In this document: piece after piece, positions 3,698 to 53,768 of the stretch
Layout of the letters: each line of letters starts with the position of its first letter
Position numbering within the stretch: position 1 is the stretch's first letter
Origin: Verrucomicrobiota bacterium
GTDB lineage: Bacteria; Verrucomicrobiota; Verrucomicrobiia; Limisphaerales; JACQFS01
Length of the DNA: 55,776 bases
Direction of reading: 5' to 3'
Assembly: GCA_016199935.1 (NCBI GenBank)
Contig: JACQFS010000157.1
Span: 1 to 55,776 of the forward strand
Position numbers and translations under genes: made by a program
Notes under the pieces: generated by a model
Told to the model about the DNA's origin: nothing
Databases searched by the model: none
Seen by the model: only the letters and a program-made list of their open reading frames with translations

Positions 3698-4125
3698 CGT
3701 CGCCGTCGAGTTCGGAGTGCGTTCGCGGTTTCGCCCCGGAGCGCGGGCCGTCCCGGCCCGCAGCGGCCAGAGAGGTCAGGGCGCGTTGAGATTTACCGAA
3801 CCTGTCTCGCCCTGCGGAGCCGCTGCGGACGGGGACCGCCCGCGCTCCGCCCGCGCAGCGCCGGAGGCGCGGCAGAAAGTAGCCCACGGCGTCAGCCGTG
3901 GGTTCGCCCCCCCCCCAAGCCCCGGAGGGGCGACAGAATCGTCCCGCCGCCCATCCGTTTCCTCTGCCGCCCCTGACGGGGCTTGCCCCCTTGCCCTCGA
4001 AAACCCACGGCTGACGCCGTGGGCTACTCTCTGTCGCCGCTCCGCGGCTGGTCCCGCGCATCGCCGTCGAGTCCGGAGTGCGTTCGCGGCTTCGCCCCGG
4101 AGGGCGGCCCTTCCCGGCTTGCCGC
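3698..4125. repeat. Nested palindromic repeat island
   Basis: The block is bounded by an imperfect direct repeat of about 60 bp (3701-3760 and 4062-4124). Inside are a GC-rich palindrome (arms near 3738-3766 and 3820-3848), a perfect 27-bp inverted repeat (3878-3904 with 4002-4028, containing 'cccacggctgacgccgtggg') and, within that, a further imperfect pair around ccccggaggggcgacaga and its complement. No convincing gene is present. The arms look like REP or MITE-type elements inserted one inside another. The long reading frames here are by-products of high GC. Confidence 0.8.
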
Positions 4126-4277
4126 CATAATGGGCGGAAACACTCCCCGCCTGCCTTCACGTTACTTTAATGCCTGCGTAAAGCTGCATCGGCCTCCCAG
4201 GCGTTGTTTGGGCCAATGCAAACATCGGTAATGGGCAAAAAGGGCTCTTTTTAGCCGTTCCAGATATTCATAGCAGG

Positions 4278-4613
4278 CATCCTGACGTCGGGAAGGCCAC
4301 TTCCAGTTTTCACAACGGGCATCCTGACGCCGGGAAGGCCACTTCCAGTTTTCACAACGGGCATCCTGACGTCGGGAAGGCCATTTCCAGTTTTCACAAT
4401 GGGCATCCTGACGTCGGGAAGGCCATTCCGAGTTTTCGGCATGGGCATCCTGACGTCTGGAAGGCCGTTCCGAGTTTTCGGCATGGGCATCCTGACGTCT
4501 GGAAGGCCATTCCGAGTTTTCAGCATGGGCATCCTGACGTCCGGAAGCCCATTCCAAGTTTTCGGAACGGGCTTCCGGATGCCCGGATGGTCATTCCGGG
4601 TTTTCGGATCTGG
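4278..4613. repeat. 42-bp tandem repeat, eight units
   Basis: Units begin at 4278, 4320, 4362, 4404, 4446, 4488, 4530 and 4572, each starting near catcctgacg and ending near gttttc followed by ca(a/t)ggg-like sequence. A degenerate ninth unit seems to precede at about 4240. The period is exactly 42, so several frames on both strands stay open (14-residue protein repeats on either strand). This does not by itself show coding. Units in the middle are most alike, while the outermost unit (4572) is the most divergent, as expected for repeat expansion. There are no spacers, so it is not CRISPR. Confidence 0.9.
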
Positions 4614-13597: not shown

Positions 13598-14041
13598 ATG
13601 GGCATCCTCATCGCACTCCTCACGTTCATCCTCGTGGTGAACTGTCTCTTCCTCATCCTGCTCGTCCTCGTGCAGCTTCCGAAAAAGGACGCCGGCGCGG
13701 GCATGGCGTTCGGCGCGGGCGCGGGCGACGCGCTCTTCGGCGCCGGCTCGGGCAACGTGCTGACCAAGGTGACCAAATATTCCGCCGGCATCTTCCTTGG
13801 GCTGTCGGTGCTGCTCTCGGTGATGAACATCAACCACCACAAGAGCACGGGCAGCTCGGACGAGTTGCGCCGCGAACTGGAGAAAAAAGCGAAGGTGCCC
13901 GCCGCCATGCCGGCTGCGACCGCGCCGGTGCAGCAACCGGCTGCCACTCCCGTCGCGACGAATCTCGGCGCGCCGAGTAACTTCACGATCGACCTGCCGA
14001 AGCCGGCCGCCGCGCCCGCACCCGCGCCGCAGAAGAAGTAA
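13598..14041 (+). CDS. secG: Preprotein translocase subunit SecG
   Basis: 147 residues. Two membrane helices (about 1-24 and 56-76) are joined by a Gly-rich cytoplasmic loop with the typical 'FGxGxGDxLFGxGxxNVLTK' pattern of SecG. A long Ala/Pro-rich tail (about 95-147) is unusual compared with the compact SecG of E. coli, although such tails are frequent in some phyla. It assists SecYE/SecA-driven export in the inner membrane. It is last in the pgk-tpiA-secG operon, ending 21 bp before a strong terminator. Confidence 0.93.
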   Translation: MGILIALLTFILVVNCLFLILLVLVQLPKKDAGAGMAFGAGAGDALFGAGSGNVLTKVTKYSAGIFLGLSVLLSVMNINHHKSTGSSDELRRELEKKAKVPAAMPAATAPVQQPAATPVATNLGAPSNFTIDLPKPAAAPAPAPQKK

Positions 14042-14062
14042 TTTCGCCGACCTGAAGTCGCG

Positions 14063-14100
14063 AGCGCCGCCGGAAAAATTCCGGCGGCGCTTTGTTGTTT
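14063..14100 (+). terminator. Rho-independent terminator after secG
   Basis: A perfect 13-bp stem (14063-14075 with 14079-14091) with a 3-nt AAA loop is followed by a T-rich run (ttgttgttt). It ends the pgk-tpiA-secG unit. The next repeat hairpin starts three bases later. Confidence 0.93.
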
Positions 14101-14102
14101 CA

Positions 14103-14189
14103 GGGATGAGGGATGAGGTATGAAGGATGACCACAAGCCGATGCGCTGGCTCCGTTTCATACTTCATACCTCAGCCCTCATCCTTCTGG
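14103..14189. repeat. Iterated-heptamer inverted repeat overlapping the start of the peptide-binding protein gene
   Basis: Arm one consists of gggatga, gggatga, ggtatga and aggatga (14103-14130). Arm two consists of tttcata, cttcata, cctcagc, cctcatc and cttctgg (14155-14189). The arms are mutually complementary. Arm two encodes most of the lipoprotein signal peptide, and arm one contains an alternative upstream ATG. Confidence 0.88.
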
Positions 14190-15736
14190 CCGCCTGCTCC
14201 GGCTCGGGGCCGCGCGCCGATCTCGTCATCCTCAACGGCGCCGAGCCGGAGTCGCTCGATCCCGGCATCGTCACCGGGCAGCCGGACATTCGCGCCAGCG
14301 GCGCGCTCTTCGAGGGGCTTACGCGCTACGACGCGAAGACGGGCGAGCCCATCCCGGGCCTCGCGGAGCGCTGGGACATTTCGGAGAATCGGAAAACCTA
14401 CACCTTCCACCTCCGCTCGAACGCCGTGTGGTCCACTGGCGAACCGATCACGGCGCGCGACTTTGTTTACTCCTGGCTCCGCGTGCTCGCGCCCGAGCTG
14501 GCGGCGGAATACTCGGGCCAGCTTTTTTTCATCAAGAACGCCGAGGAGTTCAACACGGGCAAGCTCACCAACGCCGCGCTCGTCGGCGTCCACGCGCTCG
14601 ACGACCGCACGCTGCGCGTCGAGCTGCACAGTCCGATTCCGTTTTTCCTGAGTCTTTGCGCGTTCAGCACGCTGGCCGTTGTGCCTCAATCGCACATCGA
14701 GAAACACGGCGACCGCTGGCTCTCGGTGCAACCGATTCCTTGCAGCGGCGCCTACGAGCTCGTCGAGTGGCGGCTCAACGACCGCATCCGCGTCCGCAAA
14801 AACCCGCGCTACTGGGACGCCGCGAACACGCGCAACTCCGTCGTGGACCTCCTCCCCGTCAGCTCGCCGAACACCGCGCTGAATCTTTTCCTCAAAGGCG
14901 AGGCTGACATCGTGTGGGACAAAACACTCGTGCCCGTCGAGTTGCTCGACGCGCTGCGGCAGCGGCCGGATTTTCACAGCTTCGATTACATCGGCACCTA
15001 CTTCATCCGCTTCAACCTCACGAAGGAACCTTTCAAAGACGTGCGCGTGCGTCAGGCACTCGCGCTTGCGGTGGACAAGCGCCGACTCGTCGAGCGCATC
15101 ACGCGCGGTGGCGAGCGCGTCGCGGAAAGTTTCACGCCGCCCGGCACCGCCGGCTACGCGCCGCCCGCGGGCCTCGGCTACGATCCGGCGCGCGCGCGCC
15201 GCCTGCTCGCCGAGGCGGGCTATCCCGGCGGCAAGGGCTTTCGCCGTTTTGACTACCTCATGAACTCCGCGGCCGGCGGCGGCGCGAAGATCGACGAAAA
15301 AATCGGCGTCGAGCTGCAGGCGATGTGGAAACAGGAGCTCGGCCTCGACGTCGAGCTGCGCACGCAGGAGTGGAAGGTCTATCTCGCCTCGCAGCGACAG
15401 CTCGATTACGACACGTGCCGCAGCAGTTGGATCGGCGACTACAACGACGCGAACACGTTCCTCGACATGTTCATGAGCAATAACGGCAACAACCGCACCG
15501 GCTGGAAGAGCGAGCGCTACGACGAGCTCGTGCGCCGCGCGAACCAGCAGCCCGACCCGCGCGAGCGCGAGCGCATTTTCCAATCCGCCGAGATGCTGCT
15601 GCTGCGCGAGGAAACGGTGGTCGCGCCCATTTATTTTTACGCCGGATTTTTCGCCTTCGACACGAACCGGATCGAGGGCATCTGGCCGAACATCATTGAC
15701 CAGCATCCGATCAATGCGATTGGGCGTAAGAAGTAA
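14141..15736 (+). CDS. oppA: ABC transporter periplasmic oligopeptide-binding lipoprotein
   Basis: 531 residues of solute-binding protein family 5 (OppA/DppA). The signal peptide ends in the lipobox L-A-A-C with Cys19, so it is anchored in a membrane as a lipoprotein. Hallmarks are EPESLDPG near the mature start, the FxGLxRYD-type segment, DFVYSWLRVL, and LALAVDKRRLVERI with TPPGTAGY towards the middle. It captures peptides for the two permeases encoded downstream. The ATG at 14141 is preferred over the one at 14120 because it gives a standard signal peptide. Oddly, residues 5-16 are encoded by heptamer repeats and the last codons plus the stop by another repeat (15724-15751). Confidence 0.9.
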   Translation: MRWLRFILHTSALILLAACSGSGPRADLVILNGAEPESLDPGIVTGQPDIRASGALFEGLTRYDAKTGEPIPGLAERWDISENRKTYTFHLRSNAVWSTGEPITARDFVYSWLRVLAPELAAEYSGQLFFIKNAEEFNTGKLTNAALVGVHALDDRTLRVELHSPIPFFLSLCAFSTLAVVPQSHIEKHGDRWLSVQPIPCSGAYELVEWRLNDRIRVRKNPRYWDAANTRNSVVDLLPVSSPNTALNLFLKGEADIVWDKTLVPVELLDALRQRPDFHSFDYIGTYFIRFNLTKEPFKDVRVRQALALAVDKRRLVERITRGGERVAESFTPPGTAGYAPPAGLGYDPARARRLLAEAGYPGGKGFRRFDYLMNSAAGGGAKIDEKIGVELQAMWKQELGLDVELRTQEWKVYLASQRQLDYDTCRSSWIGDYNDANTFLDMFMSNNGNNRTGWKSERYDELVRRANQQPDPRERERIFQSAEMLLLREETVVAPIYFYAGFFAFDTNRIEGIWPNIIDQHPINAIGRKK

Positions 15737-15799
15737 GGAGTAATCCGTAATCCAGAAACCAGACCAGCTCCTTTACGAATTACTCCTTACTCATCACGC
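15724..15799. repeat. Iterated-heptamer inverted repeat between oppA and oppB
   Basis: Arm one: gcgtaag, aagtaag, gagtaat and ccgtaat (15724-15751), which includes the oppA stop codon at 15734-15736. Arm two: tttacga, attactc, cttactc and atcacgc (15772-15799), ending four bases before the oppB ATG. Similar words occur at 49392-49471 and 54699-54789. Confidence 0.9.
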
Positions 15800-15802
15800 C
15801 CC

Positions 15803-16717
15803 ATGTATTTTCTAAAGCGCATCCTCACCCTGCTGCCGCTGACGCTGCTCATCACGCTGCTGGCGTTCGTGCTCGTGCGTGTGTCGCCGGGCGGGCCGTT
15901 CGACAAGGAGCGCGCGCCGGCCTCGCCGGAAATCGAGAAGCAGCTCCGGGCCAAGTATCACCTCGACGAATCGTGGCCGCGCCAATACCTCCGCTTCCTC
16001 GGCGGCGCGGTGCGCGGCGATCTCGGGCCGTCGCTCAAGTATCGCAACCACAACGTCACCGACATTTTGCTGCAAGGTCTGCCCGTCTCCGCGCTGCTCG
16101 GCACGCTCGCGTTCGGCTTCGCGATGGGCCTCGGGATTCCGTGGGGCGTGTTCATGGCGGTGCGCCGCGGCGAAGGCGGCGATCACACGGCGGGTTTCCT
16201 CGCGCTGCTCGCGGTGTGCGTGCCGGGTTTCGTCATCGGGCCGCTGCTCGTCATGGTGCTCGCGATCAAGCTGGACTGGTTTCCCGTCGCCCTCTGGGCC
16301 TCGCCGTGGCACGCGGTGCTGCCGACGATGGCGCTCGGACTTTTCTACGCGGGAAAAATTTCACGGCTGCTGCGCGAGAGCATGAGTGGCGTGCTGCACC
16401 TTGAATTTGTGACCGCTGCCCGCGCGCGCGGCGTCGGCAACCCGGCGCTGCTGATGAAGCACGCGCTGCGCGTGGCGATCCTGCCGGTCGTCTCCTACTC
16501 GGGACCGATGCTCGCGGATTTGCTCACGGGTTCGTTCGTCATCGAAAATCTTTTTCAAATTCCCGGCATCGGCGTGTTCCTCGTGAACAGCCTCCAGAAC
16601 CGTGACTACCCGATGACCGCCGGGCTGGTGATGGTCTTCGCGGTGCTGCTGCTCACGCTCAATCTGCTCGTGGACCTGCTCTACGTGAAACTGGATCGGA
16701 GGGTGAAACTGGAATGA
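15803..16717 (+). CDS. oppB: Oligopeptide ABC transporter permease (OppB/DppB type)
   Basis: A 304-residue inner-membrane protein of the binding-protein-dependent transport family. It has an N-terminal helix (about 9-29) and about five more after residue 95. The EAA-like loop 'EFVTAARARGVGNPALLMKHALR' lies at about residues 197-219 and docks the ATPases. It ends in an ATGA overlap with oppC, so the two are translationally coupled. No ATPase (OppD/F) is encoded nearby, so those subunits must come from elsewhere. Confidence 0.93.
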   Translation: MYFLKRILTLLPLTLLITLLAFVLVRVSPGGPFDKERAPASPEIEKQLRAKYHLDESWPRQYLRFLGGAVRGDLGPSLKYRNHNVTDILLQGLPVSALLGTLAFGFAMGLGIPWGVFMAVRRGEGGDHTAGFLALLAVCVPGFVIGPLLVMVLAIKLDWFPVALWASPWHAVLPTMALGLFYAGKISRLLRESMSGVLHLEFVTAARARGVGNPALLMKHALRVAILPVVSYSGPMLADLLTGSFVIENLFQIPGIGVFLVNSLQNRDYPMTAGLVMVFAVLLLTLNLLVDLLYVKLDRRVKLE

Positions 16718-29138: not shown

Positions 29139-29191
29139 TTCGCTTCAACCGTGCACGCGCGCGGTTCTTTTCGGATGACTTCTGGTTTTTA

Positions 29192-29352
29192 ACGCAAAGA
29201 CGCAAAGGCGCAAAGGCGCGGGAGGAAGAATTTTATCCGCGAATCTGCGCGAATTTGCGCGAATGAGTTTCGGCGGAGGACATTCGCGCGAATTCGCGCA
29301 GATTCGCGGACAAGAAATTTTTGCGCCTGTGCGTCTTTGCGCCTTTGCGTTG
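29192..29352. repeat. Nested iterated hairpin: outer period 8, inner period 10
   Basis: Outer arms: acgcaaag, acgcaaag and gcgcaaag (29192-29215), with ttgcgcct, gtgcgtct, ttgcgcct and ttgcgttg (29321-29352). Inner arms: tccgcgaatc, tgcgcgaatt and tgcgcgaatg (29236-29265), with cattcgcgcg, aattcgcgca and gattcgcgga (29281-29310). It occupies most of the 329-bp gap before the SPFH gene. No gene is visible there. Confidence 0.9.
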
Positions 29353-30427: not shown

Positions 30428-30495
30428 CGTTTGAGTGCCGGGAGGTTACGAGCGGACGGGGCGATTGCAAAGATTTATCCCGGCCGGCGAAGGCC

Positions 30496-30602
30496 GGAGC
30501 GCGGGTCGTCCCGGCCCGCAGCGCGTGAGCAGTCGGTGGGTGTTGGAAATACCCGAACCTCGCCTTGGGGCCGGCACCGCTGCGAGCCGGGACGGCTCGC
30601 GG
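30496..30602. repeat. Dispersed GC-rich palindrome, copy 2
   Basis: Imperfect inverted repeat with arms near 30496-30522 and 30577-30602, related to the elements at 3738-3848, 51761-51869 and 53631-53740. The loop contains the family's 'ccgaacct' segment. It ends ten bases before the stop codon of the SurA-like gene. Confidence 0.75.
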
Positions 30603-30612
30603 TCCGATCCGC

Positions 30613-36104: not shown

Positions 36105-36117
36105 GCGTGGAGTTTTA

Positions 36118-36187
36118 ACGCAAAGACGCAAAGACGCAAAGGCGCAAAGAGTTTTCACTCCCTGCGCCTTTGCGTCTTTGCGTTGAA
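36118..36187. repeat. Iterated-octamer inverted repeat
   Basis: Arm one: acgcaaag (three times) and gcgcaaag (36118-36149). Arm two: gcgccttt, gcgtcttt and gcgttgaa (36164-36187). The same octamer word forms the outer arms at 29192-29352, about 7 kb away. It fills the 84-bp gap between the NUDIX gene and the PQQ-like gene. Confidence 0.92.
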
Positions 36188-51755: not shown

Positions 51756-51760
51756 CGGCG

Positions 51761-51869
51761 GAGCGCGGGCCGTCTCGGCCCGCAGCGGTTGCGAAGGGAG
51801 AGGAGCATGAAACTTTTTCGAACGCGTTCCGTCTTGCGGTGCCGCTGCGGGCCGGGACGGCCCGCGCTC
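51761..51869. repeat. Dispersed GC-rich palindrome, copy 3
   Basis: A 28-bp inverted repeat (51761-51788 with 51842-51869) with one mismatch. It belongs to the family of 3738-3848. It fills most of the 160-bp gap before the exonuclease gene. Confidence 0.88.
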
Positions 51870-51915
51870 CGTCCCGCATTGCCTCCCGCGGTGACTCGGC
51901 TAGTCTCTCCCCGCC

Positions 51916-53572: not shown

Positions 53573-53768
53573 ACCACGGATGGAAACGGATGAACACGGA
53601 TGTTTTGCCCGCGAAACACGCGAATGGAACGGAGCGCGGACGGTCCCCGTCCGCAGCGGCTCCGCAAGACGGGACGGGTTCGGATAATCGCAAACCGTTT
53701 TGCATCTGCGGCTGCTGCGGGCCGGGCCGGCCCGCGCTCCGTTCGCGTCATTCGCGTGTTTCGCGGGC
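53573..53768. repeat. Composite repeat: decamer steps, 20-bp inverted repeat and GC-rich palindrome
   Basis: Three decamers (accacggatg, gaaacggatg, aacacggatg at 53573-53602) are followed by a perfect 20-bp inverted repeat (53607-53626 with 53749-53768). Inside it is a copy of the dispersed GC-rich palindrome (53631-53740), with its loop in the opposite orientation to the copy at 3738. The block separates the divergent esterase and tyrA genes, both of which start with GTG, so any promoters must lie in or beside it. Confidence 0.9.

Follow-up and report, generated by a model that had tools for sequence, protein, structure and literature searches.

The signal-peptide region of an oppA-like gene in a Limisphaerales bacterium (Verrucomicrobiota) is very probably an exapted hairpin of heptamer repeats, as sequence comparisons indicate. 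The gene (positions 14120–15736, forward strand) encodes a solute-binding lipoprotein (Pfam SBP_bac_5, E = 1.2e-89) and is located in the window, the term used here for the whole analysed stretch of 55,776 nucleotides (contig JACQFS010000157.1). Relatives were taken from the Limisphaerales (Pedosphaera relatives), an order of soil- and water-dwelling bacteria, all from families other than that of the window. Of 85 distinct oppA orthologues, 14 carry a period-7 array in the 63 nt preceding the lipobox cysteine, compared with 0 of 1955 control windows of equal size from gene bodies.

The hairpin between secG and oppA

The upstream gene secG (13598–14041, forward strand; Pfam SecG, 1.3e-13) is followed on the same strand by a terminator-like stem-loop with a T-rich tail, detected by sequence scan at 14062–14092. 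The hairpin is positioned about 10 nt past this stem-loop, between secG and the oppA-like gene, and consists of an inverted repeat whose arms (14104–14130 and 14157–14183) are 27 nt long each, 93% complementary and separated by a 26-nt loop. On the forward strand, the left arm forms a period-7 array at 14102–14130 composed of the four heptamers GGGATGA, GGGATGA, GGTATGA and AGGATGA, and it includes a GAGGG (14108–14112) assigned by eye as Shine-Dalgarno-like. The right arm (14157–14183, forward strand) is built up of four pyrimidine-rich heptamers and codes for the h-region FILHTSALIL. The units of the arms are of the RRKATGA type or its complement, and the identity at an offset of seven nucleotides averages 82% over both arms. 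The RNA fold predicted for 14092–14200 has an energy of −51.8 kcal/mol (z = −5.8), with one candidate start codon, ATG 14120, paired and another, ATG 14141, unpaired in the apical loop. Together with the Markov control described below, the arm length and complementarity, the period-7 array and the z-score of the fold confirm the heptamer-repeat hairpin claimed in an earlier note on this DNA.

The reading frame contains these two ATGs ahead of the lipobox. The open reading frame starts at 14120–14122 (forward strand) within the left arm, where an in-frame ATG had indeed been claimed, while the ATG in the hairpin loop (14141–14143, forward strand) yields MRWLRFILHTSALILLAAC. The earlier assignment of the right arm to residues 5–16 is close when counted from ATG 14141 (about residues 6–15) and fails when counted from ATG 14120 (about residues 13–22). 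In genome L002, the sole in-frame ATG is also found at −75 from the cysteine codon, which matches position 14120 of the window. The lipobox L-A-A-C occupies 14186–14197 on the forward strand with its cysteine codon at 14195–14197. Both MRWLRFILHTSALILLAAC and the longer form from ATG 14120 possess the basic n-region, hydrophobic h-region and lipobox cysteine of a lipoprotein signal peptide. From its hydropathy and the retained lipobox we infer that the repeat-coded signal peptide is still functional.

Upstream of the hairpin, the window has a CTG (14052–14054, forward strand) where, by eye, the relative L002 has an ATG; this CTG may be what remains of an earlier start of oppA or of a leader open reading frame. 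The L002 frame from the ATG ahead of the stem-loop stops, again by eye, at a TGA of the left arm. Read in this way, CTG 14052 and the TGA of L002 would be consistent with a hairpin that displaced an older start. A search for a sigma-70-like promoter upstream gave no candidate. In 22 of the 85 orthologues a terminator-like stem-loop lies within the oppA frame, downstream of an in-frame ATG; there, the T-run of the stem-loop codes for part of the signal peptide, and the stem-loop often gives a recurring N-A-L...R-A-F motif. The automatic calls of secG ends and terminators, which are rough at some loci, were kept out of the main statistic.

Heptamer units in orthologous signal regions

The period of seven stands out among the orthologues, since arrays of any other period occur in only 0–2 signal regions each. 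With a threshold of 11 matches in 14 positions, 14 arrays were seen against 1.65 expected from shuffled sequences, and with 12 matches in 14 positions 12 were seen against 0.3 expected; the remaining 71 of the 85 orthologues have no detectable array in the 63-nt scan. The units, and with them the encoded peptides, differ substantially. TTTTGCC codes for FCLLPFAFCLL in L107, L120 and L124 (with a variant in L092), TTCTGCA for FSAFCILYL in L006, CTCTGAC-like units for LLTSALCLLTSG in L111, CTCATAC for FIPHASYLIL in L002 and TTTACG-like units for LRLALYVLL in L021. The unit type of the window hairpin is common to three genomes only (L001, L002 and L101). The maximum hydropathy of the heptamer-coded signal peptides falls inside the range of the orthologues, although their mean of 2.61 is slightly below the 2.80 of the others (p = 0.048). 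The earlier suggestion that a repeat had rewritten the signal peptide thus gains good support from a significant subset of orthologues built from different heptamers, with continued function read from the features described above. The orthologue comparison it called for indeed revealed unrelated signal peptides, and no orthologue showed the observation named beforehand as speaking against it, namely identical signal-peptide DNA lacking repeats.

Mapped onto the supported branches of the mature-protein tree, the presence of the array changes at least five times, where each change may be a gain or a loss, and the identity of the unit changes 11 times. A clade of nine genomes (SH-aLRT 100) with mature OppA proteins 88–97% identical contains heptamers in every signal region, with at least six kinds of unit. 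Within the pair L131 and L129, whose mature OppA proteins are 96.7% identical, L131 has two copies of TGTTGCC and L129 two copies of GTTTGCC; the identical change in each of the two repeat copies implies that the copies changed together. Between L101 and its sister L120 (93.8%), everything between the stop codon of secG and the lipobox is replaced, including the terminator, and the replacement in L101 is a hairpin of the TTCATAC kind, as in the window and in L002. The latter two relatives, L002 and L101, are distant genomes from the same groundwater project and share, upstream of oppA, GATGAATTATGA and CATACTTTCCCTCCTCCTC beyond the heptamers; transfer, convergence and assembly error might each account for these shared bases.

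Heptamer repeats elsewhere in the genome and in known systems

Heptamer repeats are widespread in the genome of the window. In 299 kb of it, 19 strict period-7 arrays and few of other periods were detected, whereas an order-2 Markov version of the same 299 kb gave none at this threshold. For 16 inverted-repeat pairs the best period is 7, with units as variable as GTAATGC, GAATGAC, AAGTTCA and GTATGAG, among others. The heptamer hairpins are mainly intergenic and often occupy the entire gap, as does a second one in the window, which was found by the repeat scan at 15719–15804 (forward strand) and fills the oppA–oppB gap. A search of the genome for a near-identical full-length second copy of the oppA hairpin was negative; other matches are of arm length or correspond to about 75% identical hairpins of the TCAT type with different loops, and arms of TCATNNY units with other loops are present on more than 12 further contigs. 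This pattern differs from that of MITEs or palindromic mobile elements, whose dispersed copies share a single complete sequence and terminal inverted repeats, and comparison with Rfam gave no match at the gathering score of any family. The short, mostly intergenic 7-nt arrays are those of the heptamer tandem-repeat class (STRR, TAACTGA and GGGNATC kind), except that many units coexist within one genome in place of one dominant fixed unit. The window also harbours similar hairpins built of 8- and 10-nt units (29190–29350 and 36116–36183), a tandem array with a 42-nt unit in about eight copies with 89% matches (4276–4605), and four copies of a GC-rich inverted repeat (CGGAGCGCGGGCCGTC...) without period 7 (3737–3849, 30495–30606, 51759–51871 and 53627–53744), which would seem to be a dispersed family of palindromes in its own right.

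Other proteins were surveyed in 651 kb of the same genome, exclusive of the window and of stretches chosen for this repeat type; the gene calls came from a codon-usage model of our own, and the class counts are therefore approximate. In a sulfatase (L033:4288–4440), a heptamer hairpin constitutes the predicted signal peptide (MKKFKAQSSKLKE...LLLTFELCPLSFAAG), with the left arm as n-region, the right arm as h-region and the Pfam domain beginning at residue 55. In a 3-keto-disaccharide hydrolase (L195:13209–13380), a 52-nt, 83% complementary heptamer hairpin spans the predicted signal peptide; both arms are inside it, and the Pfam domain begins at residue 61. A second sulfatase (L218) has a heptamer arm within its predicted signal peptide. 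The linker of a MutL-like protein (L200:3799–4184) contains two different in-frame heptamer arrays, and a heptamer hairpin immediately precedes the start of this protein. Four different arrays are found in one gene at L212:9225–12902, and an in-frame TCATCC-type heptamer array at L214:4810–4843 in a protein that appears LarC-like by eye.

Cyanobacterial STRR are likewise mostly intergenic heptamer arrays. The GGGNATC heptamers of Xanthomonas and Nostoc (Rehm 2015, PMC4692102) resemble the repeats described here in being mostly intergenic with a preference for four units. They differ by a fixed G-rich unit, a proposed G-quadruplex role and under-representation in coding DNA, and the sections of that paper describing them report no inverted arms, unlike the present case. 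TAACTGA direct repeats of Beggiatoaceae and Cyanobacteria are situated in gaps near start codons (MacGregor 2015, PMC4679880). Like the repeats of the window, they have one strand with stops in all frames and another that is readable, and some lie at protein ends; in contrast, they comprise a single unit with only one indirect repeat, and a signal-peptide role is not mentioned in the relevant parts of the article (PMC4679880). Rickettsia palindromic elements are also inserted in frame within protein genes, yet they are families of about 100–150 bp with conserved sequence (PMC10969869, PMC2229807), whereas the arms found here are short, composed of 7-nt units and fixed neither in sequence nor in length. 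A further parallel is the Yersinia YPAL/RU-2 element, a small palindromic repeat that forms part of the predicted YPO1552 signal peptide (Delihas 2007, in PMC2229807). As far as the account in PMC2229807 describes it, this case concerns one locus and a MITE-like element of fixed sequence, unlike the conserved importer gene, varying heptamer units and several lineages involved here. Searches of the open-licence literature yielded neither a paper on heptanucleotide repeats in Verrucomicrobia nor an earlier case in which heptamers of varying unit had repeatedly reshaped a conserved gene's signal peptide. Repeat-derived protein segments are already known; repeated reshaping of a signal peptide by heptamers of varying unit appears to be new with respect to this literature.

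Alternative readings and proposed capture of the hairpin

Low complexity and an abundance of Leu, Phe and Ala characterise signal peptides, such that period 7 might be conceived as a by-product of amino-acid or codon bias instead of a trace of repeat DNA. This is scarcely credible, because codon bias predicts multiples of three (6, 9, 12), which are not enriched, while period 7 alone is, and because like heptamers also form inverted arms and occur in gaps that are not translated. A true start downstream of the repeats, or repeats left untranslated, would leave no repeat-coded signal peptide at all, the two ATGs being candidate starts. Yet only 11 nt without an in-frame ATG separate the right arm from the cysteine codon, the protein would have no h-region without the arm, and the lipobox cysteine (Cys26) is invariant in alignment A1; we regard such a start as very improbable.

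More weight is due to the proposal that the hairpin is mainly a regulatory mRNA structure, whose stem hides ATG 14120 and the Shine-Dalgarno-like GAGG and thereby controls translation of the importer, the coding effect being incidental. The strong predicted fold with its paired first and exposed second ATG is in line with this, as are similar predicted folds in L002 and L101. But in L131, L129, L107, L111 and L021 the signal peptide contains the array although no left arm matches it, and similar hairpins occupy the gaps between many unrelated genes, convergent ones included. We therefore consider a mainly regulatory role unlikely, although translational control by the modelled hairpin is possible. 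Several orthologues lack the opposite arm while retaining the array. What is conserved is therefore not the hairpin, and capture of the repeats as coding sequence is held as the main explanation.

For this capture we propose the following scenario. The hairpin would have arisen in, or been inserted into, the secG–oppA gap. Its purine-rich left arm, with TGA stops and several ATGs, would then have disconnected the gene from whatever older start lay upstream and, at the same time, supplied a start codon and the Shine-Dalgarno-like GAGG, while the stop-free pyrimidine-rich right arm could have served as h-region at once. As 7 is not divisible by 3, a heptamer array codes for the identical cyclic heptapeptide in all three frames. 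Most right-arm units contain no stop and have positive mean hydropathy, and the peptides read from the opposite strand are mostly hydrophilic, interrupted by a stop, or both. The pyrimidine-rich arm would thus provide a ready h-region, being stop-free and hydrophobic in any frame, and the opposite arm would tend to end upstream frames because its strand often has a stop; the element may have been captured as start and signal peptide for the reason that its pyrimidine-rich arm is mostly hydrophobic in any frame. Signal peptides tolerate much sequence change. Selection would subsequently act on hydrophobicity and the lipobox only, and the units would for this reason keep changing by continual exchange or homogenisation.

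In a tentative and rather doubtful generalisation, the heptamer hairpins of the Limisphaerales might represent ready-made signal-peptide cassettes by which secretion tags are repeatedly made and replaced throughout the order. The purine-rich arm would give the start codon, the Shine-Dalgarno sequence or an n-region containing Lys/Arg, and the pyrimidine-rich arm the h-region; the L033 sulfatase and the L195 hydrolase, with both arms inside the signal peptide, may serve as examples. For the oppA-like gene itself, capture of the repeats would constitute a replicated natural case in which non-coding (“junk”) repeat DNA became a required part of a protein. The raw material of the signal peptide would be identifiable, and its change visible between genomes with more than 90% identical mature proteins. 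The frame-independence of a 7-nt unit would explain why such a repeat works as a signal peptide, and the idea that signal peptides originate from repeats would become testable by simple export assays.
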